From: Phormidium tenue FACHB-886
Lineage (GTDB): Bacteria > Cyanobacteriota > Cyanobacteriia > Elainellales > Elainellaceae
Assembly (NCBI RefSeq): GCF_014764505.1
Contig: NZ_JACXWX010000001.1
Location: 186,001-250,000, forward strand
Length of the DNA stretch: 64,000 bases
Reading direction: 5' to 3'
The notes beneath the pieces are model-generated. The model was not told the DNA's origin. It saw nothing but the letters and a program-made list of their open reading frames with translations, and did not search any database. A program made the position numbers and the translations under genes. Positions within the stretch are counted from its first letter, which is position 1, and each line of letters starts with the position of its first letter. Below are positions 187 to 48,488 of the stretch, in pieces.

Positions 187-1623
187 CTAAGCCGGGCTGT
201 AGCAAGTTGCCTGTTGTTCTGCCTGCTGGTAAAACGCCAGTAGTTCTGGAATGATTCGGTTTAAATTGCCAGCCCCTAAGAACAGCACTAAATCACCAGG
301 ACGAAGCGCCGTTTGAAGATAGGCTTCCACTTCAGCCAAGGTAGACTGGTAAGAAACCTGTGGATGATGAGCGGCGATCGCTGCTGCTAGCTGCTCCCCG
401 GTCACCTGCCCCTGATTAGACTCTCCCGCACTATATATATCTGTTGTCACGACCAGATCTGCATCACCAAACGACTCCGCAAATTCTTTTAGAAAAGTTG
501 AGGTGCGGCTGTAGCGGTGCGGTTGAAAAACTGCCACTACCCGCTGTAAATTGGGCTGAGCGCGTAGCCGAGCCGCTGCCAACGTTGCCTGAATTTCGCT
601 GGGGTGGTGGGCGTAGTCGTCAATGAAAAGAATCTGGTTGTATTCGCCGCGCCGCTCAAACCGCCGTCGCGCGCCCTCAAAGGTGGTAAGGATAGAGGCG
701 ATCTGAGCAAATTCTAGACCGACTAACCGCCCCACCGCGATCGCTGCTAACGCGTTGCTCAAGTTATGCTCACCCAGCAGCCGCAGATGTAGTTCACCCA
801 GTAGTGTTCCCCGCTCATACACCTGGGCAATCGTTCCGTCTGCCTGATAAACAACTTGAGCGACTGTGTAATCGGCACCATCTGAGCAGACGCTATAGCT
901 TACAGTGGGCTGTACTTGCTGAACGAGCGGACTATCGAGACAGCCGATTAAAGTTTGACACTGACGAGCAAACGTTTGAAAGGTGGCGATCACTTCATCC
1001 AACGAGGCGTAATGGTCTGGGTGATCGAGTTCAATGTTGGTGATAACGCCAATGTCTGCCGCCAGTTTCACCAGAGAACCGTCTGATTCATCTGCTTCTG
1101 CAACCAGATAGGCGCTTTCTCCAGAGCGGGCGTTACCTTCCCATGCCTTTACTTCACCCCCAACTACAATTGTCGGGTCGAGCCCCGCTTGGAGCAGTAA
1201 GAAGCCGATCATGCTGCTCGTGGTCGTTTTGCCATGCGTTCCAGCAACAGCAATTCCCCTATATTCTCGCATCAGCGCTGCCAGTAGATCAGAGCGATGA
1301 AAAATCGGGCAGCCGAGATCAATTGCTGCCCGATATTCTGCATTTGCAGCGCTGATCGCCGTAGAGCAGACAACCTGGGGCAGCAAGGCTATATCTGAGA
1401 GAGGAACTTCTGAACGAAATGCTTCTAAATTGGCTGCGTCTTGGCTCCAGAAAATGTGAGCGCCCTGCTCTTGTAGCCGCTGCGTTATATGGTTAAGACT
1501 TAGATCTGATCCTGATACAGGTAGCTTGCGCTGGGTCAGAACGTAAGCGAGAGCTGACATCCCAATTCCACCGATTCCGATGAAATGAAATGGTCTCCCG
1601 CTGAAATCAACAGAGTTCAGCAT
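187..1623 (-). CDS. murC: UDP-N-acetylmuramate--L-alanine ligase MurC
   Basis: This cytoplasmic Mur ligase adds L-alanine to UDP-MurNAc at the expense of ATP, the first step of peptide stem synthesis in peptidoglycan. The 478-residue protein has the full family length. The N-terminal Rossmann glycine motif FHFIGIGGIGMSALAYVL lies at about residues 12-29, the ATP-binding P-loop GTHGKTTT at about 128-135, the central-domain motif NIELDHPDHY near 195, and the C-terminal DDYAHHPSEI motif near 335. The ATG at 1623 follows AGGAGC on the minus strand. nadD lies divergently across a 285-bp gap, and the probable murB start follows downstream. Confidence 0.97.
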   Translation of the reverse strand: MLNSVDFSGRPFHFIGIGGIGMSALAYVLTQRKLPVSGSDLSLNHITQRLQEQGAHIFWSQDAANLEAFRSEVPLSDIALLPQVVCSTAISAANAEYRAAIDLGCPIFHRSDLLAALMREYRGIAVAGTHGKTTTSSMIGFLLLQAGLDPTIVVGGEVKAWEGNARSGESAYLVAEADESDGSLVKLAADIGVITNIELDHPDHYASLDEVIATFQTFARQCQTLIGCLDSPLVQQVQPTVSYSVCSDGADYTVAQVVYQADGTIAQVYERGTLLGELHLRLLGEHNLSNALAAIAVGRLVGLEFAQIASILTTFEGARRRFERRGEYNQILFIDDYAHHPSEIQATLAAARLRAQPNLQRVVAVFQPHRYSRTSTFLKEFAESFGDADLVVTTDIYSAGESNQGQVTGEQLAAAIAAHHPQVSYQSTLAEVEAYLQTALRPGDLVLFLGAGNLNRIIPELLAFYQQAEQQATCYSPA

Positions 1624-1908
1624 TATAGCTCCTTACACACACCACACCACACCAAATATCACGCGATATCATAGCAAGAATTGCTTTTTCTGCGATATGC
1701 CTTTGCCGCAGATTTTTTATGAATGGTCTGAATTATCGCTCAACTCTCAGAATTTGACTCCATTAGTATCTCGGATTTAATTCACGTTGTTCGGCATCCT
1801 CACCTACAGAAATAGACTGAATTTGCCTTAGAGTTATACCGAAATAGCTACACAAGTGCTTTAAAAGATTCCTGAAAGCACTGAATTAATTTTTGATATT
1901 AGCTTTTT

Positions 1909-2538
1909 ATGTCCAAAAAAATAGCAGTCCTAGGAGGCACATTTAATCCAGTTCATATCGGTCATTTGATAATGGCAGAAACTGCCTTAAATCAGTGCGC
2001 CCTTGATTGCGTTCTTTGGGTTCCAACACATCGTCCAATTTATAAATCCACCGCTGGGTTAGTTGAGTTTAAACACCGATTAGAGATGTTGAAGCTGGCG
2101 ATCGCTGCTCACCCCCAGTTTGAAGCGTCTGCGATTGAACAGACTCACTCTATTTCTTATGCGATCGAAACGCTATTAGCTCTGCAGGCGCTTCATCCAG
2201 ACAACCAATGGTATTGGATTGTAGGGCTAGATGCAGCACAATCACTTCCCCACTGGCATCGGCGGCAGGAGTTAGTACCGCAGTGCATCTGGTTAATTGC
2301 CCCTCGACAGTTGCACAGCAGCGCAACAAATCAAGTTAAGCCTTGCCAGCAAGTGGCTGAAAAGCTTCTTTCAGAGGAAATAATGTTTCGGTGGGAGATG
2401 CTTGAGATGCCGCTGGTTGAAATTTCTTCTGGATTAATTCGGCATTATTGCACAGAGCAGCGTTCTATCCGCTACCTGCTCCCCGATGCAGTCAAAGCTT
2501 ACATTCAAACGCTGGGACTTTATCGATCACCAGATTAA
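1909..2538 (+). CDS. nadD: Nicotinate-nucleotide adenylyltransferase NadD
   Basis: NadD transfers AMP from ATP to nicotinate mononucleotide, making deamido-NAD in NAD biosynthesis. The 209-residue protein opens with the nucleotidyltransferase motif GGTFNPVHIGHL (about residues 9-20, HxGH type) and has the C-terminal ISSGLIRHYC, a variant of the usual SSTxIR signature. The length is normal for bacterial NadD. A clear ribosome site is not visible before the ATG. It may be transcribed alone, as gap2 begins 270 bp further on. The 3' end of nadA, from the same pathway, lies at the far right of the window but is not linked to it. Confidence 0.93.
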   Translation: MSKKIAVLGGTFNPVHIGHLIMAETALNQCALDCVLWVPTHRPIYKSTAGLVEFKHRLEMLKLAIAAHPQFEASAIEQTHSISYAIETLLALQALHPDNQWYWIVGLDAAQSLPHWHRRQELVPQCIWLIAPRQLHSSATNQVKPCQQVAEKLLSEEIMFRWEMLEMPLVEISSGLIRHYCTEQRSIRYLLPDAVKAYIQTLGLYRSPD

Positions 2539-2808
2539 AATCGGCTAATTTATCTCTTTAACAAATAACTTGAGTCCCTATCGCCTGTCTGTCCTTGCTT
2601 CTCGGGATTGCGCTTAGCCTTAAATTAAAATTGATAAGCAAAAATACTTATTAGCTAAAATTGACTGCTATCAAGGGTTTTAGCGGATCAGCCCTGCCAA
2701 ATCTACCTAAAAATGCGATCCCCAGCCCTTGAGAAGCTCACTCATAAACATGTATGATTTGAGGCATTACTTAACGATCTTCTTAATTTCTAGCGAGGGC
2801 AAGACGCA

Positions 2809-3822
2809 GTGATTAGAGTAGCGATCAATGGTTTTGGGCGCATCGGGCGCAACTTTTTGCGGTGCTGGCTAGGGCGGGAGAACAGCCAGTTTGAAGTCGT
2901 CGCCATCAACGACACCTCTGATCCTAAAACCAACGCTCACCTGTTAAGATACGATTCCATGCTGGGCAAGCTGGATGCTGATATCAGCTCGACTGACAAC
3001 ACTATCACCGCTAACGGTCATGTGATCAAATGCACATCCGATCGCAACCCACTCAACTTACCTTGGGGCGATTGGGAAGTGGACTTGATCATTGAATCAA
3101 CCGGCGTGTTCACCTCTAGGGATGGTGCATCCAAGCACCTACAGGCAGGCGCCAAAAAAGTGTTGATCACCGCACCCGGTAAGAATGATGATGGCACGTT
3201 TGTAGTGGGTGTCAACGATGGTGACTACGACCACAGCAAGCATACTATTATCAGCAACGCGAGCTGCACCACCAACTGCCTTGCCCCGATCGCCAAAGTA
3301 CTACACGAAAACTTCGGCATCGTCAAAGGCACAATGACCACCACCCACAGTTATACAGGTGACCAACGCCTGCTAGATGCTAGCCACCGCGATGTGCGGC
3401 GGGCACGGGCTGCTGCACTTAACATTGTTCCCACCACCACAGGCGCTGCCAAAGCTGTAGCGCTAGTGCTGCCAGCGCTGAAGGGCAAGCTGAACGGAAT
3501 CGCTTTGCGTGTTCCCACGCCAAACGTGTCGGTTGTAGATTTGGTGGTGCAGGTCGAACGTTCAACGATCGCCGAACAGGTTAACGAAGCCCTCAAGGCA
3601 GCCTCAGAAGGACCACTCAAAGGCATTCTGGCGTACAGCGAGCTAGAACTTGTCTCCTCTGACTATCGCGGCACAGATGAGTCATCAATTGTAGATTCTT
3701 TCTTAACAATGGTGATGGGCGGCGATATGGTTAAGGTTGTAGCTTGGTATGACAATGAATGGGGCTACAGCCAGCGTGTGGTTGATTTGGCAGAAACAGT
3801 TGCTCAAAAGTGGGCAGCTTAG
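2809..3822 (+). CDS. gap2: Glyceraldehyde-3-phosphate dehydrogenase, Gap2 type
   Basis: A GAPDH of 337 residues. The N-terminal dinucleotide-binding motif is [11 protein letters not shown] (about residues 6-16) and the catalytic motif [12 protein letters not shown] places the nucleophile at Cys153. In cyanobacteria the Gap2 isozyme works in the Calvin cycle and gluconeogenesis and accepts NADPH; the [17 protein letters not shown] stretch (35-51) fits that type better than the NAD-specific Gap1. The start is a GTG at 2809 with GAGGGC upstream. Downstream are two overlapping hairpins and then a strong bidirectional terminator shared with the convergent response regulator gene. Confidence 0.95.
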
Positions 3823-3842
3823 AGGTAAGAACAGTTTGGGTT

Positions 3843-3890
3843 CACCTTAAACGTGTTTAAGGTGGGATGCGCTCCGCGCATCCCACCTTA
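3843..3890 (+). repeat. Overlapping alternative hairpins after gap2
   Basis: Two inverted repeats share one arm. CACCTTAAAC (3843-3852) can pair with GTTTAAGGTG (3855-3864). The same TAAGGTG is also the start of a 15-bp perfect stem, TAAGGTGGGATGCGC (3858-3872) with its complement at 3876-3890 and a 3-nt loop. The two folds are mutually exclusive. Confidence 0.75.
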
Positions 3891-3919
3891 GAGTCTTTCA
3901 TTCGAGCGCAAATCGGTCT

Positions 3920-3960
3920 AAACAGCGCAGCCACGAATTGCGGCTGCGCTGTTTTATTAC
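3920..3960. terminator. Bidirectional terminator between gap2 and the response regulator
   Basis: A 13-bp perfect stem, AAACAGCGCAGCC (3920-3932) with its complement at 3942-3954, followed by TTTATT on the plus strand; the minus strand reads U-rich sequence on the other side less clearly. It lies between two convergent genes. Confidence 0.85.
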
Positions 3961-3994
3961 ACTCATTAATTTTAATTAAAACTTCTTGCCTCTA

Positions 3995-4708
3995 CTAGGT
4001 CGCTGCAACTTCCTGATCTTCTGGCGCTTCAAACTTATAACCAACACCCCGTACGGTTTGAATTAGGGCAGGCTGGGAGGTATCGATCTCGATCTTTTTG
4101 CGAATTTGCCCGATATGAACGTCTACAACTCGCTGATCGCCAACGTATTCATAATCCCAAACTTTTTGGATGAGTTCAGCCCTGCGCCAAACGCGACCAG
4201 GGTGACTTGCTAGGAAATGCAGCAGATCAAACTCCAGCGCAGTCAAAGGCACGATATCACTATTTAACGTCACTTCGCGGCGGACTGGGTCGATCACCAA
4301 CCCGTTGAAGGCAAGGCACTGTTGCTCAGCCGCCGTTACCGGACGCTGCCGCTTCAGGATTGCTCCAACGCGCCATTCTAATTCGCCCAGGCTGAAAGGC
4401 TTCGTTAAATAATCGTCTGCGCCTTGAGCAAAACCACGGATTTTATCTGCTTCATCACTACGACTGGTCAGCATCAGGACGAAAACATTAGTCCGGCTCT
4501 GCATCTCTTGGCAAAGCGTATAGCCCGTCGCATCTGGCAAATTCACGTCCAGAATTACCAGATCGGGGTTAAACTGCTCGAACAATGCCAAAGCGCTTTT
4601 GCCATCTTCAGCAGATTCTAGCTGATAGTTTTGCTTAGAGAGAAATCGGTGAATCAGAGTCCGGATAGCGGGATCGTCATCAACTACAAGAATTTTGGCT
4701 GAAGCCAT
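3995..4708 (-). CDS. OmpR/PhoB-family response regulator
   Basis: A two-component transcription factor. The receiver domain starts at KILVVDDDPAIRT, with the phospho-acceptor Asp at about residue 54 (LVILDVNLP) and the KPFS switch lysine about 50 residues later. The C-terminal winged helix ends in QTVRGVGYKFEAP, typical of OmpR/PhoB. I chose the ATG at 4708 because AAGG lies 8 nt upstream. The frame stays open to 4840, and an ATG at 4714 is also possible. No histidine kinase is adjacent. It is clearly not the canonical RpaB sequence, and I do not assign it to a named cyanobacterial regulator. Confidence 0.9.
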   Translation of the reverse strand: MASAKILVVDDDPAIRTLIHRFLSKQNYQLESAEDGKSALALFEQFNPDLVILDVNLPDATGYTLCQEMQSRTNVFVLMLTSRSDEADKIRGFAQGADDYLTKPFSLGELEWRVGAILKRQRPVTAAEQQCLAFNGLVIDPVRREVTLNSDIVPLTALEFDLLHFLASHPGRVWRRAELIQKVWDYEYVGDQRVVDVHIGQIRKKIEIDTSQPALIQTVRGVGYKFEAPEDQEVAAT

Positions 4709-5157
4709 AGCCATAACCTTAGCGGGAGTGAGTAACGGTAAGCAGAAAATCAGGCAACAAATCTTTAAAGCTTGTAAATCTTTAAAGCTAAGTGAAAAAT
4801 TAAAAGGGATCGAGCCACACTGCCATGAATTGATCCACAATCAATATATACTCTGCATATTATGCAGCTACAGAAACAATTATCTGTCTAGAGATTTGGC
4901 AATGCCAACTCTTCGAGGTTGCCGACCCAAACAGGTTGGACTAAACAAGAACTGACTTTAGACAGAGTACACAGGGTAGAGACACGACAAAGTTTAATCT
5001 TTAAGCTAGCTCTATTTGCGGAACGCTGGTAGATGATTACACTGGTGGCTAGCGGGGTTTGCTGGCAGGTGGGTGACACGGAGCTTGGTGGTCTCCCCAA
5101 TGCGTCTTACGCCAATCATAATCGAATTAGGTTGAGGGAGTCTTCCGGAGGATAGAC
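4709..5157. other. Intergenic region between two divergent genes
   Basis: About 450 bp that should hold the promoters of the response regulator (minus) and the CPP1-like gene (plus). It contains the palindrome described separately. A 70-codon minus frame at 4888-5100 has no recognisable features and is not called. Confidence 0.6.
4853..4867. promoter_or_regulatory. 15-bp palindrome, candidate operator
   Basis: CTGCATATTATGCAG is a perfect 7-1-7 inverted repeat in AT-rich DNA about 145 bp upstream of the response regulator start. TATATATT-like sequence lies next to it. Binding of a dimeric regulator, possibly autoregulation, is an inference. Confidence 0.4.
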
Positions 5158-11497: not shown

Positions 11498-11535
11498 AAC
11501 AGGTCAGCTACCCCGACGAAGGCAGCTGACCTGTT
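11498..11535. terminator. Hairpin between convergent M23 and patD genes
   Basis: A 12-bp perfect stem, AACAGGTCAGCT (11498-11509) with its complement at 11524-11535, followed by CCGTTTTCT on the plus strand. It probably ends transcription from the left; it may also act on the minus strand. Confidence 0.7.
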
Positions 11536-11542
11536 CCGTTTT

Positions 11543-11896
11543 CTATTGCTCCAGCACTGCCTCACAGTACCGCAACAACATCTCTACTCGGTCGCTGATT
11601 TGCTGCTGCCGTTGGCTAGCAGTTGCGGAGAGGCGGGCAGCCTGAAGGAACAGCAGATCAGTCGCTAGCAGACGCATCTGCTTGTTGATTTCCACTTGGA
11701 TAGAGTGAAGCTTTGGCGAGTCATGTGACTCGATCGGGTCTGTATCCAATGGAATAATTTGCTGTTGAAAAATTTGTTGAGCCGCTCGAAAAGCAGATTG
11801 TAAAGCAGCTCGGTCTGCTGGTTCTACAGATTGCTGAAGCGACTGGAGCGATCGCCAAAATGCATTATAAGCTTGCTGGTAAGGTGCGGACGACAT
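11543..11896 (-). CDS. patD: PatD-family protein
   Basis: This 117-residue, all-helical, Gln-rich protein matches my memory of PatD, named for control of heterocyst frequency in Anabaena: an FQQQIIPL-type segment near residue 45, EINKQMRLLATDLLFLQAAR in the middle, and RVEMLLRYCEAVLEQ at the end. In Anabaena PatD is reported to be tied to FtsZ. Homologues also occur in cyanobacteria that do not make heterocysts, so its presence does not prove differentiation. It is transcribed divergently from the small-RNA locus and rel. Confidence 0.75.
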   Translation of the reverse strand: MSSAPYQQAYNAFWRSLQSLQQSVEPADRAALQSAFRAAQQIFQQQIIPLDTDPIESHDSPKLHSIQVEINKQMRLLATDLLFLQAARLSATASQRQQQISDRVEMLLRYCEAVLEQ

Positions 11897-12004
11897 AGCT
11901 TTAGCAGGAAGTTAACAGCACAGATGTATAATAGAAAACCAAATCCAAAAGGGATTTCAGAAACTATCCAAAGATAGATTGCAAGTTAAGCCATTTGCTT
12001 CTAC

Positions 12005-12018
12005 TTGTTGCGCAACAA
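12005..12018. promoter_or_regulatory. 14-bp palindrome next to a -10 box
   Basis: TTGTTGCGCAACAA is a perfect palindrome that ends 5 bp before TATAAT at 12024-12029. It covers the spacer and -35 area of that promoter, where a dimeric regulator could block or recruit RNA polymerase. Confidence 0.5.
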
Positions 12019-12035
12019 ATCTCTATAATACGGAC

Positions 12036-12116
12036 ATAAGCATTTTGAGCGTCTGGAAATTTACTGCCTCCCGATCCTCTACCTGCCTTAAGTAGCAACG
12101 ATCGGGGCGCTTTTTC
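12036..12116 (+). ncRNA. Candidate small RNA upstream of rel
   Basis: A TATAAT box at 12024-12029 predicts a start near 12036. About 80 nt later there is an intrinsic terminator: CCCGATC (12070-12076) pairs with GATCGGG (12100-12106), followed by GCGCTTTTT. The segment before the stem, with TCTGGAAATTTACTGCCTCC, would be unpaired. There is no open frame of note. The size and layout (single-stranded GGAAA-containing core, GC-rich terminator) resemble cyanobacterial Yfr2-type RNAs, but I cannot confirm homology. It could instead be an attenuator in the rel leader, since rel starts 128 bp downstream on the same strand. Confidence 0.5.
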
Positions 12117-12243
12117 ATCTAATTACATCTGCTCTTATAGGTTTGGACATTGCTTTGCGACAGTTCTCGATAAAGCGTCTACACCTCCGTAGACGCCATA
12201 CCGTAGAATCTAGCAAATATCTACCCCTAGCCCTCTTGCATCC

Positions 12244-14568
12244 ATGACAATTGGCACTATTTCTGGGCTTGACAGCATGAACGTAGCAATTCCCTCTCTT
12301 CCAACTGACATTGCTCTCCCCAACTGGCTACAGGAGTGCATTATTGATCACCGCTCGCCCTTGGCCTGCGACGAAAACACCCCAACGCCTGCGGACGCTA
12401 CATTAGTCTGTCAGGCGTTTGAGTTTGCATACTGTTTGCACAAAGGGCAGACCCGCGCTTCTGGAGAACCATACATCGCGCATCCGGTAGCTGTGGCAGG
12501 GCTCCTGCGAGACTTGGGCGGCGGGGCAGCCATGATTGCCGCAGGCTTCCTGCATGACATCATCGAAGATACAGATGTGACTGCCGATGAAATCGAGAAG
12601 CGCTTTGGCGCGGAAACACGCCACCTGGTAGAGGGTGTCACAAAGCTGTCGAAATTTAATTTTTCCAGTAAAACAGAGCGGCAGGCAGAAAACTTCCGCC
12701 GTATGTTTTTGGCGATGGCGCAGGATATTCGGGTGATTGTGGTAAAGCTTGCCGATCGCCTGCACAACATGCGAACTCTGGAGCATCTACCCGATGACAA
12801 ACGCCGCCGCATTGCCCTGGAAACCCGAGAGATCTTTGCCCCCTTGGCAAACCGTTTGGGGATTGGACGGTTCAAATGGGAGCTAGAAGATCTGGCGTTT
12901 AAATATCTAGAGCCAGAGGCGTATCGCCAAATGCAAGAACTGGTGACGGACAAGCGCACCGATCGCGAAGCAAGGCTCGATCGGGTTGCTGCTACACTAC
13001 GACATCGATTAGAGCAATTGGGTATCAAAGCACACGACATCAATGGTCGCCCCAAGCACCTGTATGGCATCTACCACAAGATGCAGCGACAGCAAAAGCA
13101 GTTCCAGGAAATCTTCGACATTGCAGCTGTTCGTGTAATTGTGGAAACTGTAGACGAGTGCTATCGTGCCCTCGCTGTTGTGCATGATGCTTTCCGCCCC
13201 ATTCCCGGTCGCTTTAAGGATTACATCGGCTTACCCAAACCCAACCGCTATCAATCGCTTCATACAGTAGTGATTGGCACAAAGGGAAGACCGATCGAGG
13301 TGCAAATCCGCACGCTTGAAATGCATCATGTTGCCGAATATGGGATTGCTGCCCACTGGAAATACAAAGAGTCCGGCAACTCCAGCAGCCAAATGACCTC
13401 TGATGACGAAAAGTTTACCTGGCTGCGGCAGCTTTTAGAGTGGCAAAGCGATCTGAAAGACGCACAAGAGTATCTTGAGAGCGTCAAAGACAATTTGTTC
13501 GATGACGATGTTTATGTGTTCACGCCCAGCGGCGATGTGGTAGCGCTGAATCACGGCGCTACACCGGTTGATTTTGCTTACCGCATTCACACTGAAGTCG
13601 GCAACCACTGTGCTGGAGCGCGTGTGAACGAGCGTATCGTCACTTTGGATACGCCGCTGAAAAACGGCGACATTGTAGAGATTATTACCCAGAAAAACGC
13701 GCATCCTAGTTTAGACTGGCTCAATTTTGCTGTTACCCCTGCTGCCCGCAACCGAATTCGGCAGTGGTATAAGCGATCGAACCGCGACGAAAACTTGCTG
13801 CGCGGGCGAGAGCTGCTGGAAAAAGAACTGGGTAAAAGCGGATTGGATGCGCTATTCAAATCTGAGCCAATGCAGATTGTGGCAGAACGATGTAACTATT
13901 CCTCTGCCGAAGATCTAATTGCAGCACTTGGCTATGGCGAAATCACACTCAATTTGGTGGTCAACCGCATCCGCGAAGCTGTGAAAGCCAAGCAGCCAAT
14001 TGCCGCTGCTCAGACCTTAGAGGAAGATGCCGAAGCGCTGCTGTTGCCGTCTCATGCGTCAACCTCTACCCCACCTGCTACACAAAATAAAAACTGCCCG
14101 ATCGCAGGGGTGGAAGGGTTGCTCTATTCACTAGCGGGCTGTTGTAACCCAGTTCCTGGTGAGTCAATTATTGGTGTTGTCACTTTGGGCAGTCGCGGCA
14201 TCTCCATACATCGGCAGGGCTGCCACAACACAGATAACATCCCAGGCGATCGGCTAATTCCCGTCAGCTGGAATCACAATGGGCAGAACCGGAGCCGTCC
14301 TCAAACCTACCCCGTGCAGATTCAGATTGAAGTTATCGATCGAGTCGGTGTCCTCAAAGATATTCTCTCGCGCCTTAGCGACTACAACATCAACGTCCGC
14401 AGCGCCCAAGTGAAAACCTTTCCAGGACAAACGGCAACAATTAGCCTGGGTATTGATATCGTGGATCACGATCAGCTAGAGCGCACCTTCACTCAAATTC
14501 GCAAGATGAGTGACATCATCAAGCTGCGACGAGTGAGCCAGGTAGAGCAAGGGGACGAGAAAAACTAA
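12244..14568 (+). CDS. rel: Bifunctional (p)ppGpp synthetase/hydrolase, RelA/SpoT family
   Basis: The long Rel enzyme makes and degrades the stringent-response alarmone (p)ppGpp. Its 774 residues contain the HD hydrolase domain (HDIIEDTD and KLADRLHNMRTLEHL motifs), the synthetase domain with GRFKDYIGLPKPNRYQSLHT, a TGS domain (VYVFTPSGDVVALNHGATPVDFAY region) and a C-terminal ACT domain. The RFKD motif is the basic RxKD type typical of bifunctional enzymes rather than the acidic EFDD of RelA-only synthetases, and HD residues appear intact. The ATG at 12244 is used here; one at 12277 is possible. Confidence 0.96.
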   Translation: MTIGTISGLDSMNVAIPSLPTDIALPNWLQECIIDHRSPLACDENTPTPADATLVCQAFEFAYCLHKGQTRASGEPYIAHPVAVAGLLRDLGGGAAMIAAGFLHDIIEDTDVTADEIEKRFGAETRHLVEGVTKLSKFNFSSKTERQAENFRRMFLAMAQDIRVIVVKLADRLHNMRTLEHLPDDKRRRIALETREIFAPLANRLGIGRFKWELEDLAFKYLEPEAYRQMQELVTDKRTDREARLDRVAATLRHRLEQLGIKAHDINGRPKHLYGIYHKMQRQQKQFQEIFDIAAVRVIVETVDECYRALAVVHDAFRPIPGRFKDYIGLPKPNRYQSLHTVVIGTKGRPIEVQIRTLEMHHVAEYGIAAHWKYKESGNSSSQMTSDDEKFTWLRQLLEWQSDLKDAQEYLESVKDNLFDDDVYVFTPSGDVVALNHGATPVDFAYRIHTEVGNHCAGARVNERIVTLDTPLKNGDIVEIITQKNAHPSLDWLNFAVTPAARNRIRQWYKRSNRDENLLRGRELLEKELGKSGLDALFKSEPMQIVAERCNYSSAEDLIAALGYGEITLNLVVNRIREAVKAKQPIAAAQTLEEDAEALLLPSHASTSTPPATQNKNCPIAGVEGLLYSLAGCCNPVPGESIIGVVTLGSRGISIHRQGCHNTDNIPGDRLIPVSWNHNGQNRSRPQTYPVQIQIEVIDRVGVLKDILSRLSDYNINVRSAQVKTFPGQTATISLGIDIVDHDQLERTFTQIRKMSDIIKLRRVSQVEQGDEKN

Positions 14569-31875: not shown

Positions 31876-32186
31876 GATATCCTGGAGTTTTCATAGCTTC
31901 TAATTTATATAGCTCTATAAACGAAAAAACTTGAAGAAGAGGTGTGGCAGCTCAGCAAACCGCCACACCTCTTCTTCAACATAAGTTTCTTCAACATAAG
32001 TTACGTACTTTGTAGAGAATTAATGGGCTTCATTCACTATCTATCTAGGGAATGCGTAAGTCCTATCTTCTTTAAGTTAAGGTTTCTCTTATTTAAGTTT
32101 CTCTTCATTTATCTAATATTTGCCTCTTTTGTCGGTACTTATTATCAATCAGGCAATACTTTGAAAGAAGCAAAGCAGATGTATGA
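31876..32186. other. Intergenic region with long hairpin
   Basis: 311 bp between the repeat protein and the diguanylate cyclase. It has the 18-bp hairpin described separately, a 15-nt direct repeat (TTTCTTCAACATAAG at about 31985), and then AT-rich DNA before the cyclase. A frame at 31942-32193 overlaps the hairpin and is rejected. Confidence 0.6.
31931..31979. repeat. Long perfect hairpin after the repeat protein
   Basis: TTGAAGAAGAGGTGTGGC (31931-31948) and its exact complement (31962-31979) form 18 bp with a 13-nt loop. There is no T-run after the right arm, so it is not a standard intrinsic terminator. Confidence 0.75.
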
Positions 32187-48166: not shown

Positions 48167-48488
48167 GCCACCAATTCAGCAGCGCAAGTCTACTGGCGAA
48201 GCGAACCTTACACGATCAATAGGTTTTTCCTGTTGCTTGAGAATAGCTTTGCTTGAAATGCAAGAGATCTCTATGAGCAAACCGCTGATTCCAAACGAAT
48301 TAAACGGCAGGCAAAACAAGGATAAACAGATGCGATCGCACTTAATACATCCGTTCTATTATTAATTAATCTTTGGATTCATGCAATTAATACGTTTGTT
48401 CTTTATCAAAAAAGTGTGAGTCGTAGCGGTGCAATGCACCACTACGACTCACATAAGAGCTTTCGCTTTTCAGCTTAGCTTTGTCGTA
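48167..48488. other. Intergenic region upstream of the HerA-like gene
   Basis: 322 bp. The right half holds the terminator of the upstream acidic-protein gene; the left half should hold the HerA-like promoter. No other gene is seen. Confidence 0.55.
48414..48454 (-). terminator. Terminator of the acidic-protein gene
   Basis: GTGAGTCGTAG at 48416-48426 pairs with CTACGACTCAC at 48442-48452, continued by GGTGCA/TGCACC after one mismatch. On the minus strand it is followed by a run of T (48408-48413 in complement). Confidence 0.85.

Follow-up and report, generated by a model that had tools for sequence, protein, structure and literature searches.

Upstream of rel in this genome lies a 29-bp element (element B) that is probably a distal rel promoter, one that on sequence grounds would have arisen in the clade uniting this genome with Drouetiella-like relatives, upstream of an older proximal promoter (element C). 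The window analysed is the 64,000-nt stretch C1:186001-250000 of an 8.9-Mb genome; a palindrome, a TATAAT box, a hairpin and a run of five T residues (T5) all lie in the intergenic stretch that separates rel from a divergently oriented 117-aa ORF (Table 1). No known small RNA sits at this spot, which consists for the most part of ordinary regulatory DNA.

Table 1. Features of the rel upstream region, in window coordinates
Feature	Position	Strand	Remark
Divergent ORF, 117 aa	11543..11896	-	borders the intergenic region; no Pfam match
Perfect 14-bp palindrome TTGTTGCGCAACAA	12005..12018	.	right half GCAACAA alone common to relatives
Element B, conserved promoter core GCAACAAATCTCTATAATACGGACATAAG	12012..12040	+	precedes rel in four genomes
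-10 box TATAAT of element B	12024..12029	+	from sequence and conservation
Hypothetical terminated transcript	12036..12115	+	predicted start; body not conserved
Terminator-like hairpin and T5	12066..12115	+	lacking in all three relatives with element B
Element C, proximal rel promoter motif ACCGTAGAATCTAGCAAATATCTAC	12200..12224	+	-10 box TAGAAT 12204-12209
rel (HD, RelA_SpoT, TGS and ACT domains)	12277..14568	+	ATG 12277 is the start common to relatives

The longest rel ORF spans 12244-14568, and the start common to relatives (ATGAACGT..) lies 33 nt inside it; in Drouetiella hepatica (L009) the codon at the upstream start position of this longest ORF is not ATG. At the opposite edge of the intergenic region, inspection by eye reveals a direct-repeat-like element (GTTAAAGTAGTGTTAAGA or TGTAAAGAATTTTGT) beside the start of the divergent ORF (window ~11905-11945), seen also in relatives L010, L014, L016, L017, L020, L025, L103, L106 and L107, and perhaps a promoter or regulator site.

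Element B has the layout GCAACA..TATAAT..ATAAG. Searching 136 nt of the region against 60 genomes (E ≤0.1; the set includes no other species of the same genus) matched eight, this genome itself among them. Three of the seven others (L002, L009 and L013) align over ~12011-12041 only; all three matches precede rel, are oriented alike and have the -10 box at the same place. Identity with the window across element B is 27, 25 and 25 of 29 positions in these relatives, against 8, 6 and 7 of 24 in the left flank of the core (which holds the left palindrome arm), 14, 14 and 14 of 40 (ungapped) in the body of the putative RNA, and 13/40, 8/40 and 5/27 in the next stretch. Four-fold sites of rel are identical at 38% (56/146), 37% (113/303) and 40% (120/299) in the same relatives, and the contrast argues that the core is held by selection while the body and left arm are not. 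Two of the three matches have E-values of 8.0e-4 and 0.0048, which are not significant alone because the region read backward matched 7 of the same 60 genomes with a best E of 7.6e-4; the case rests on the common position at rel. TATAAT by itself is not enriched (4 per strand in the window versus 5-12 on one strand in 6 shuffles), and a stock scan listed no sigma-70-type promoter in 11500-12500, nor is there a good -35 box for element B.

The sequence-only reading had proposed a palindrome-covered promoter before rel and had called for alignment with relatives. That alignment upholds the promoter through its conserved spacer and -10 box, and leaves the palindrome, the stem and the proposed RNA core outside the conserved unit. 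The palindrome exists as described, 5 bp before TATAAT, at a frequency within chance: perfect palindromes of at least 14 bp number 7 in the window and 1-10 in each of 10 shuffles. Its left arm probably extends the conserved right half by chance. A role as a regulon operator is rejected, as the palindrome has a single place in the genome at ≤1 mismatch and an unconserved left arm.

Among 36 genomes of the family, element B at ≤3 mismatches occurs in 5, where rel accounts for 4 of the 6 places (the others are G006:C64 and G000:C180); G031, fourth of the sister-genus genomes, yielded no rel match. At ≤1 mismatch it is found in 4 of 388 genomes of the class, in all four upstream of rel, with none for the backward control. 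The pattern used for the 388 genomes was built from the same four sequences, so this result shows rarity elsewhere and is not an independent discovery. In a 29-row Rel tree the four genomes with element B form one clade (98/98), with L002 spanning only half of the columns. A direct repeat, GTAACA-4 nt-GCAACA (10 bp apart), spans the promoter spacer in L009 and L013 and is weaker in L002; it sits at -34 to -19 relative to the start, and the window has no left copy. The repeat is reminiscent of the light-response RpaB site HLR1.

Closer to rel, a search with 251 nt of the region against 36 genomes identified four (G017, G026, G028 and G032) that match window 12198-12238 or more, just upstream of their own rel starts. 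A 16-base motif (motif C), which was read from these sequences before being counted in them, is present with at least 12 matching bases upstream of rel at 28 of 96 loci versus 1.2 in shuffles; the window scores 12/16 owing to one extra base. One set comprised 80 rel loci; L083, which has no rel start, was dropped before the counts of 96, and duplicates were removed, near-duplicates such as L115/L131 being kept. A rule assigned the start codons, probably misplacing those of L131 and some further loci, and L036, L053 and L086 have shorter upstream DNA. Element C lies 89 bases downstream of the T-run of the hairpin, and a broadly found promoter at that place means that the hairpin cannot gate all rel transcription.

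In D. hepatica, element B directly precedes rel, ending ~66 nt before its ATG, and the best match to motif C there (10/16) scores no higher than shuffles do and coincides in part with element B itself. Judged by these matches, element B occupies the place expected for motif C and the usual proximal promoter appears to be missing. L009 and L013, and probably L002, are draft or metagenome assemblies, and the fusion of element B to rel in L009 may reflect misassembly. Upstream of element B in L009, from ~5001 minus 230 to 5001 minus 175, there is a long, perfect-looking inverted repeat (GCATTTTTGTTGTGTGTGGTGGGC..) that resembles a small mobile element.

Downstream of element B, the arms 12066-12076 and 12100-12110 form a hairpin of 10 pairs, 7 of them G-C, with one mismatch and a loop of 23. 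The stem CCCGATC/GATCGGG that the sequence-only reading had seen before TTTTT is indeed there (12070-12076/12100-12106, T5 at 12111-12115), following the predicted start at 12036 (a rule of thumb, 7 nt after the -10 box) by 30-34 nt rather than ~40. Hairpin and T-run are better than chance: the energy of -15.8 kcal/mol has a z of -2.38 (reached by 6 of 500 shuffles), and comparable hairpins before T5 occur 8 times in the window, where 100 shuffles average 0.63, with 2 against 0.1 for the subset with loops of at least 10 and at least 7 G-C pairs. A stock terminator scan missed the hairpin because its loops were limited to 3-8. Across the 96 rel upstream regions, scanned over 450 nt each, terminator-like sites occur in 15 versus 5.9 from shuffles, those of other genomes differing in place and sequence. 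The same scan gave no such site in the 450-nt regions of L002, L009 and L013; a looser energy scan between elements B and C gave at best -10.8 (L002) and -12.2 kcal/mol (L013), against -15.8 here. Elsewhere in the window, on the minus strand, 31931-31979 and 48415-48453 hold long, strong hairpins with T-runs (23 and 18 pairs).

That the ~80-nt unit encodes no protein, as first proposed, agrees with the lack of an ATG in any forward frame of 12036-12242; as a candidate leader peptide, a TTG-started frame of 16 codons ends in the hairpin loop and is without a counterpart to test in relatives. A resemblance to Yfr2-type RNAs had also been suggested. According to PMC8400943, Yfr2 RNAs carry the Cyano-1 motif. 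Rfam covariance searches place no family at gathering score within the window, and nothing for Yfr2/Cyano-1 (RF01701) at E up to 10 in 11900-12260. The Cyano-1 model finds its matches in this genome elsewhere, at C197:36858-36932 (42.5 bits, over the cut-off) and C1:47404-47471 (37.3 bits, under it), and Yfr2/Cyano-1 identity is rejected for the spot. The one weak Rfam hit in its vicinity (E 4.2, opposite strand) is put down to chance, and eight rel loci of relatives carry no family at gathering score except one tRNA in L013. Pairing of the RNA with the rel leader is no better than in shuffles (89 of 200 as low), and action on the leader by pairing was dropped as a candidate. Our literature searches turned up no report of a small RNA or of a distal promoter before rel, which does not prove absence in print.

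What the hairpin does can be read in several ways. The hairpin being better than chance, a terminated ~80-nt RNA specific to this species is conceivable, and an independent small RNA running from element B to the hairpin in this species alone would draw on a conserved promoter, a terminator-like end and the lack of an ATG between them. Such an RNA would also fit a separate rel promoter downstream, so that element B need not serve rel here, and the conservation of element B in this genome despite the terminator after it. We consider it unlikely: neither body nor stem is common to the three relatives that keep the promoter, no comparable hairpin is found in their intervals, the small-RNA reading thus drawing no support from conservation, and with no Rfam match and leader pairing at shuffle level goes an ordinary fold of the whole 81-nt RNA (z -0.93). 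Regulated read-through at the hairpin, setting the amount of rel made from element B, was the other role first suggested, and the order of promoter B, predicted terminator-like hairpin with T-run and then rel agrees with it, as do the excess of terminator-like sites before rel and a competing fold in which the 5' arm is sequestered (-10.3 kcal/mol). That fold is no better than shuffles (z -0.68) and far weaker than the terminator fold (-18.7 kcal/mol). This and the proximal promoter, which bypasses the hairpin from downstream, weaken the attenuator claim, and with relatives lacking the hairpin and the 15 sites differing in place and sequence we regard it as very unlikely.

The hairpin may instead be a chance product with no role, derived perhaps from a short dehydrogenase-like stretch, with element B simply adding a long-leader rel mRNA; we hold this to be possible, if doubtful. 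In the 136-nt search, 12079-12122 matches short-chain dehydrogenase coding DNA of a relative (84%, E 5.6e-5), and more weakly a pair of dehydrogenase genes in this genome itself (scores 51, 41 and 41; shuffled maximum 27), and the hairpin is absent in relatives. Against this reading, the hairpin with its T-run outdoes shuffles, and the dehydrogenase resemblance may itself be chance, since the best E of the backward control in the same 60 genomes is within ~13-fold of its E-value.

Under the reading that we favour, of element B as a clade-gained distal promoter upstream of element C, we infer from its sequence, conservation, position and clade that RNA polymerase would start near 12036. In relatives, element B would then yield a rel mRNA with a longer leader, and in D. 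hepatica it would be the sole recognizable rel promoter. In this genome, the hairpin and T-run, 30-80 nt past the start, would probably end the distal transcript, partly or completely, in which case rel would be read mainly from element C; were termination complete, element B could not serve rel here. It is conceivable, though quite improbable in our estimation, that a rel promoter gained in the clade has in this species been turned by a new terminator into a stand-alone short-RNA promoter, with rel left on its old promoter: a small RNA gene at birth beside the stringent-response gene. If the promoter reading is true, the locus documents promoter turnover at the ppGpp gene rel: within a single clade, selection would have maintained a newly gained upstream promoter that has taken the older one's place in one member and, in another, has been blocked by a terminator. 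It would offer rel start sites that can be tested in filamentous cyanobacteria, and adds no new kind of RNA.

Among known systems, Yfr2/Cyano-1 RNAs are alike in their similar size, own promoter and terminator-like 3' hairpin, and unlike in that their covariance model has no match here. Transcription attenuators of 5' leaders share the succession of promoter, hairpin with T-run and gene, whereas here an antiterminator lacks support, the leader is not conserved, and a further promoter follows the hairpin. Compared with tandem bacterial promoters of one gene, the locus differs in the terminator-like hairpin that stands between the elements in this genome only, and in that its promoters are predicted from sequence; it is like them in having two promoter-like elements before rel, the distal one limited to a single clade.
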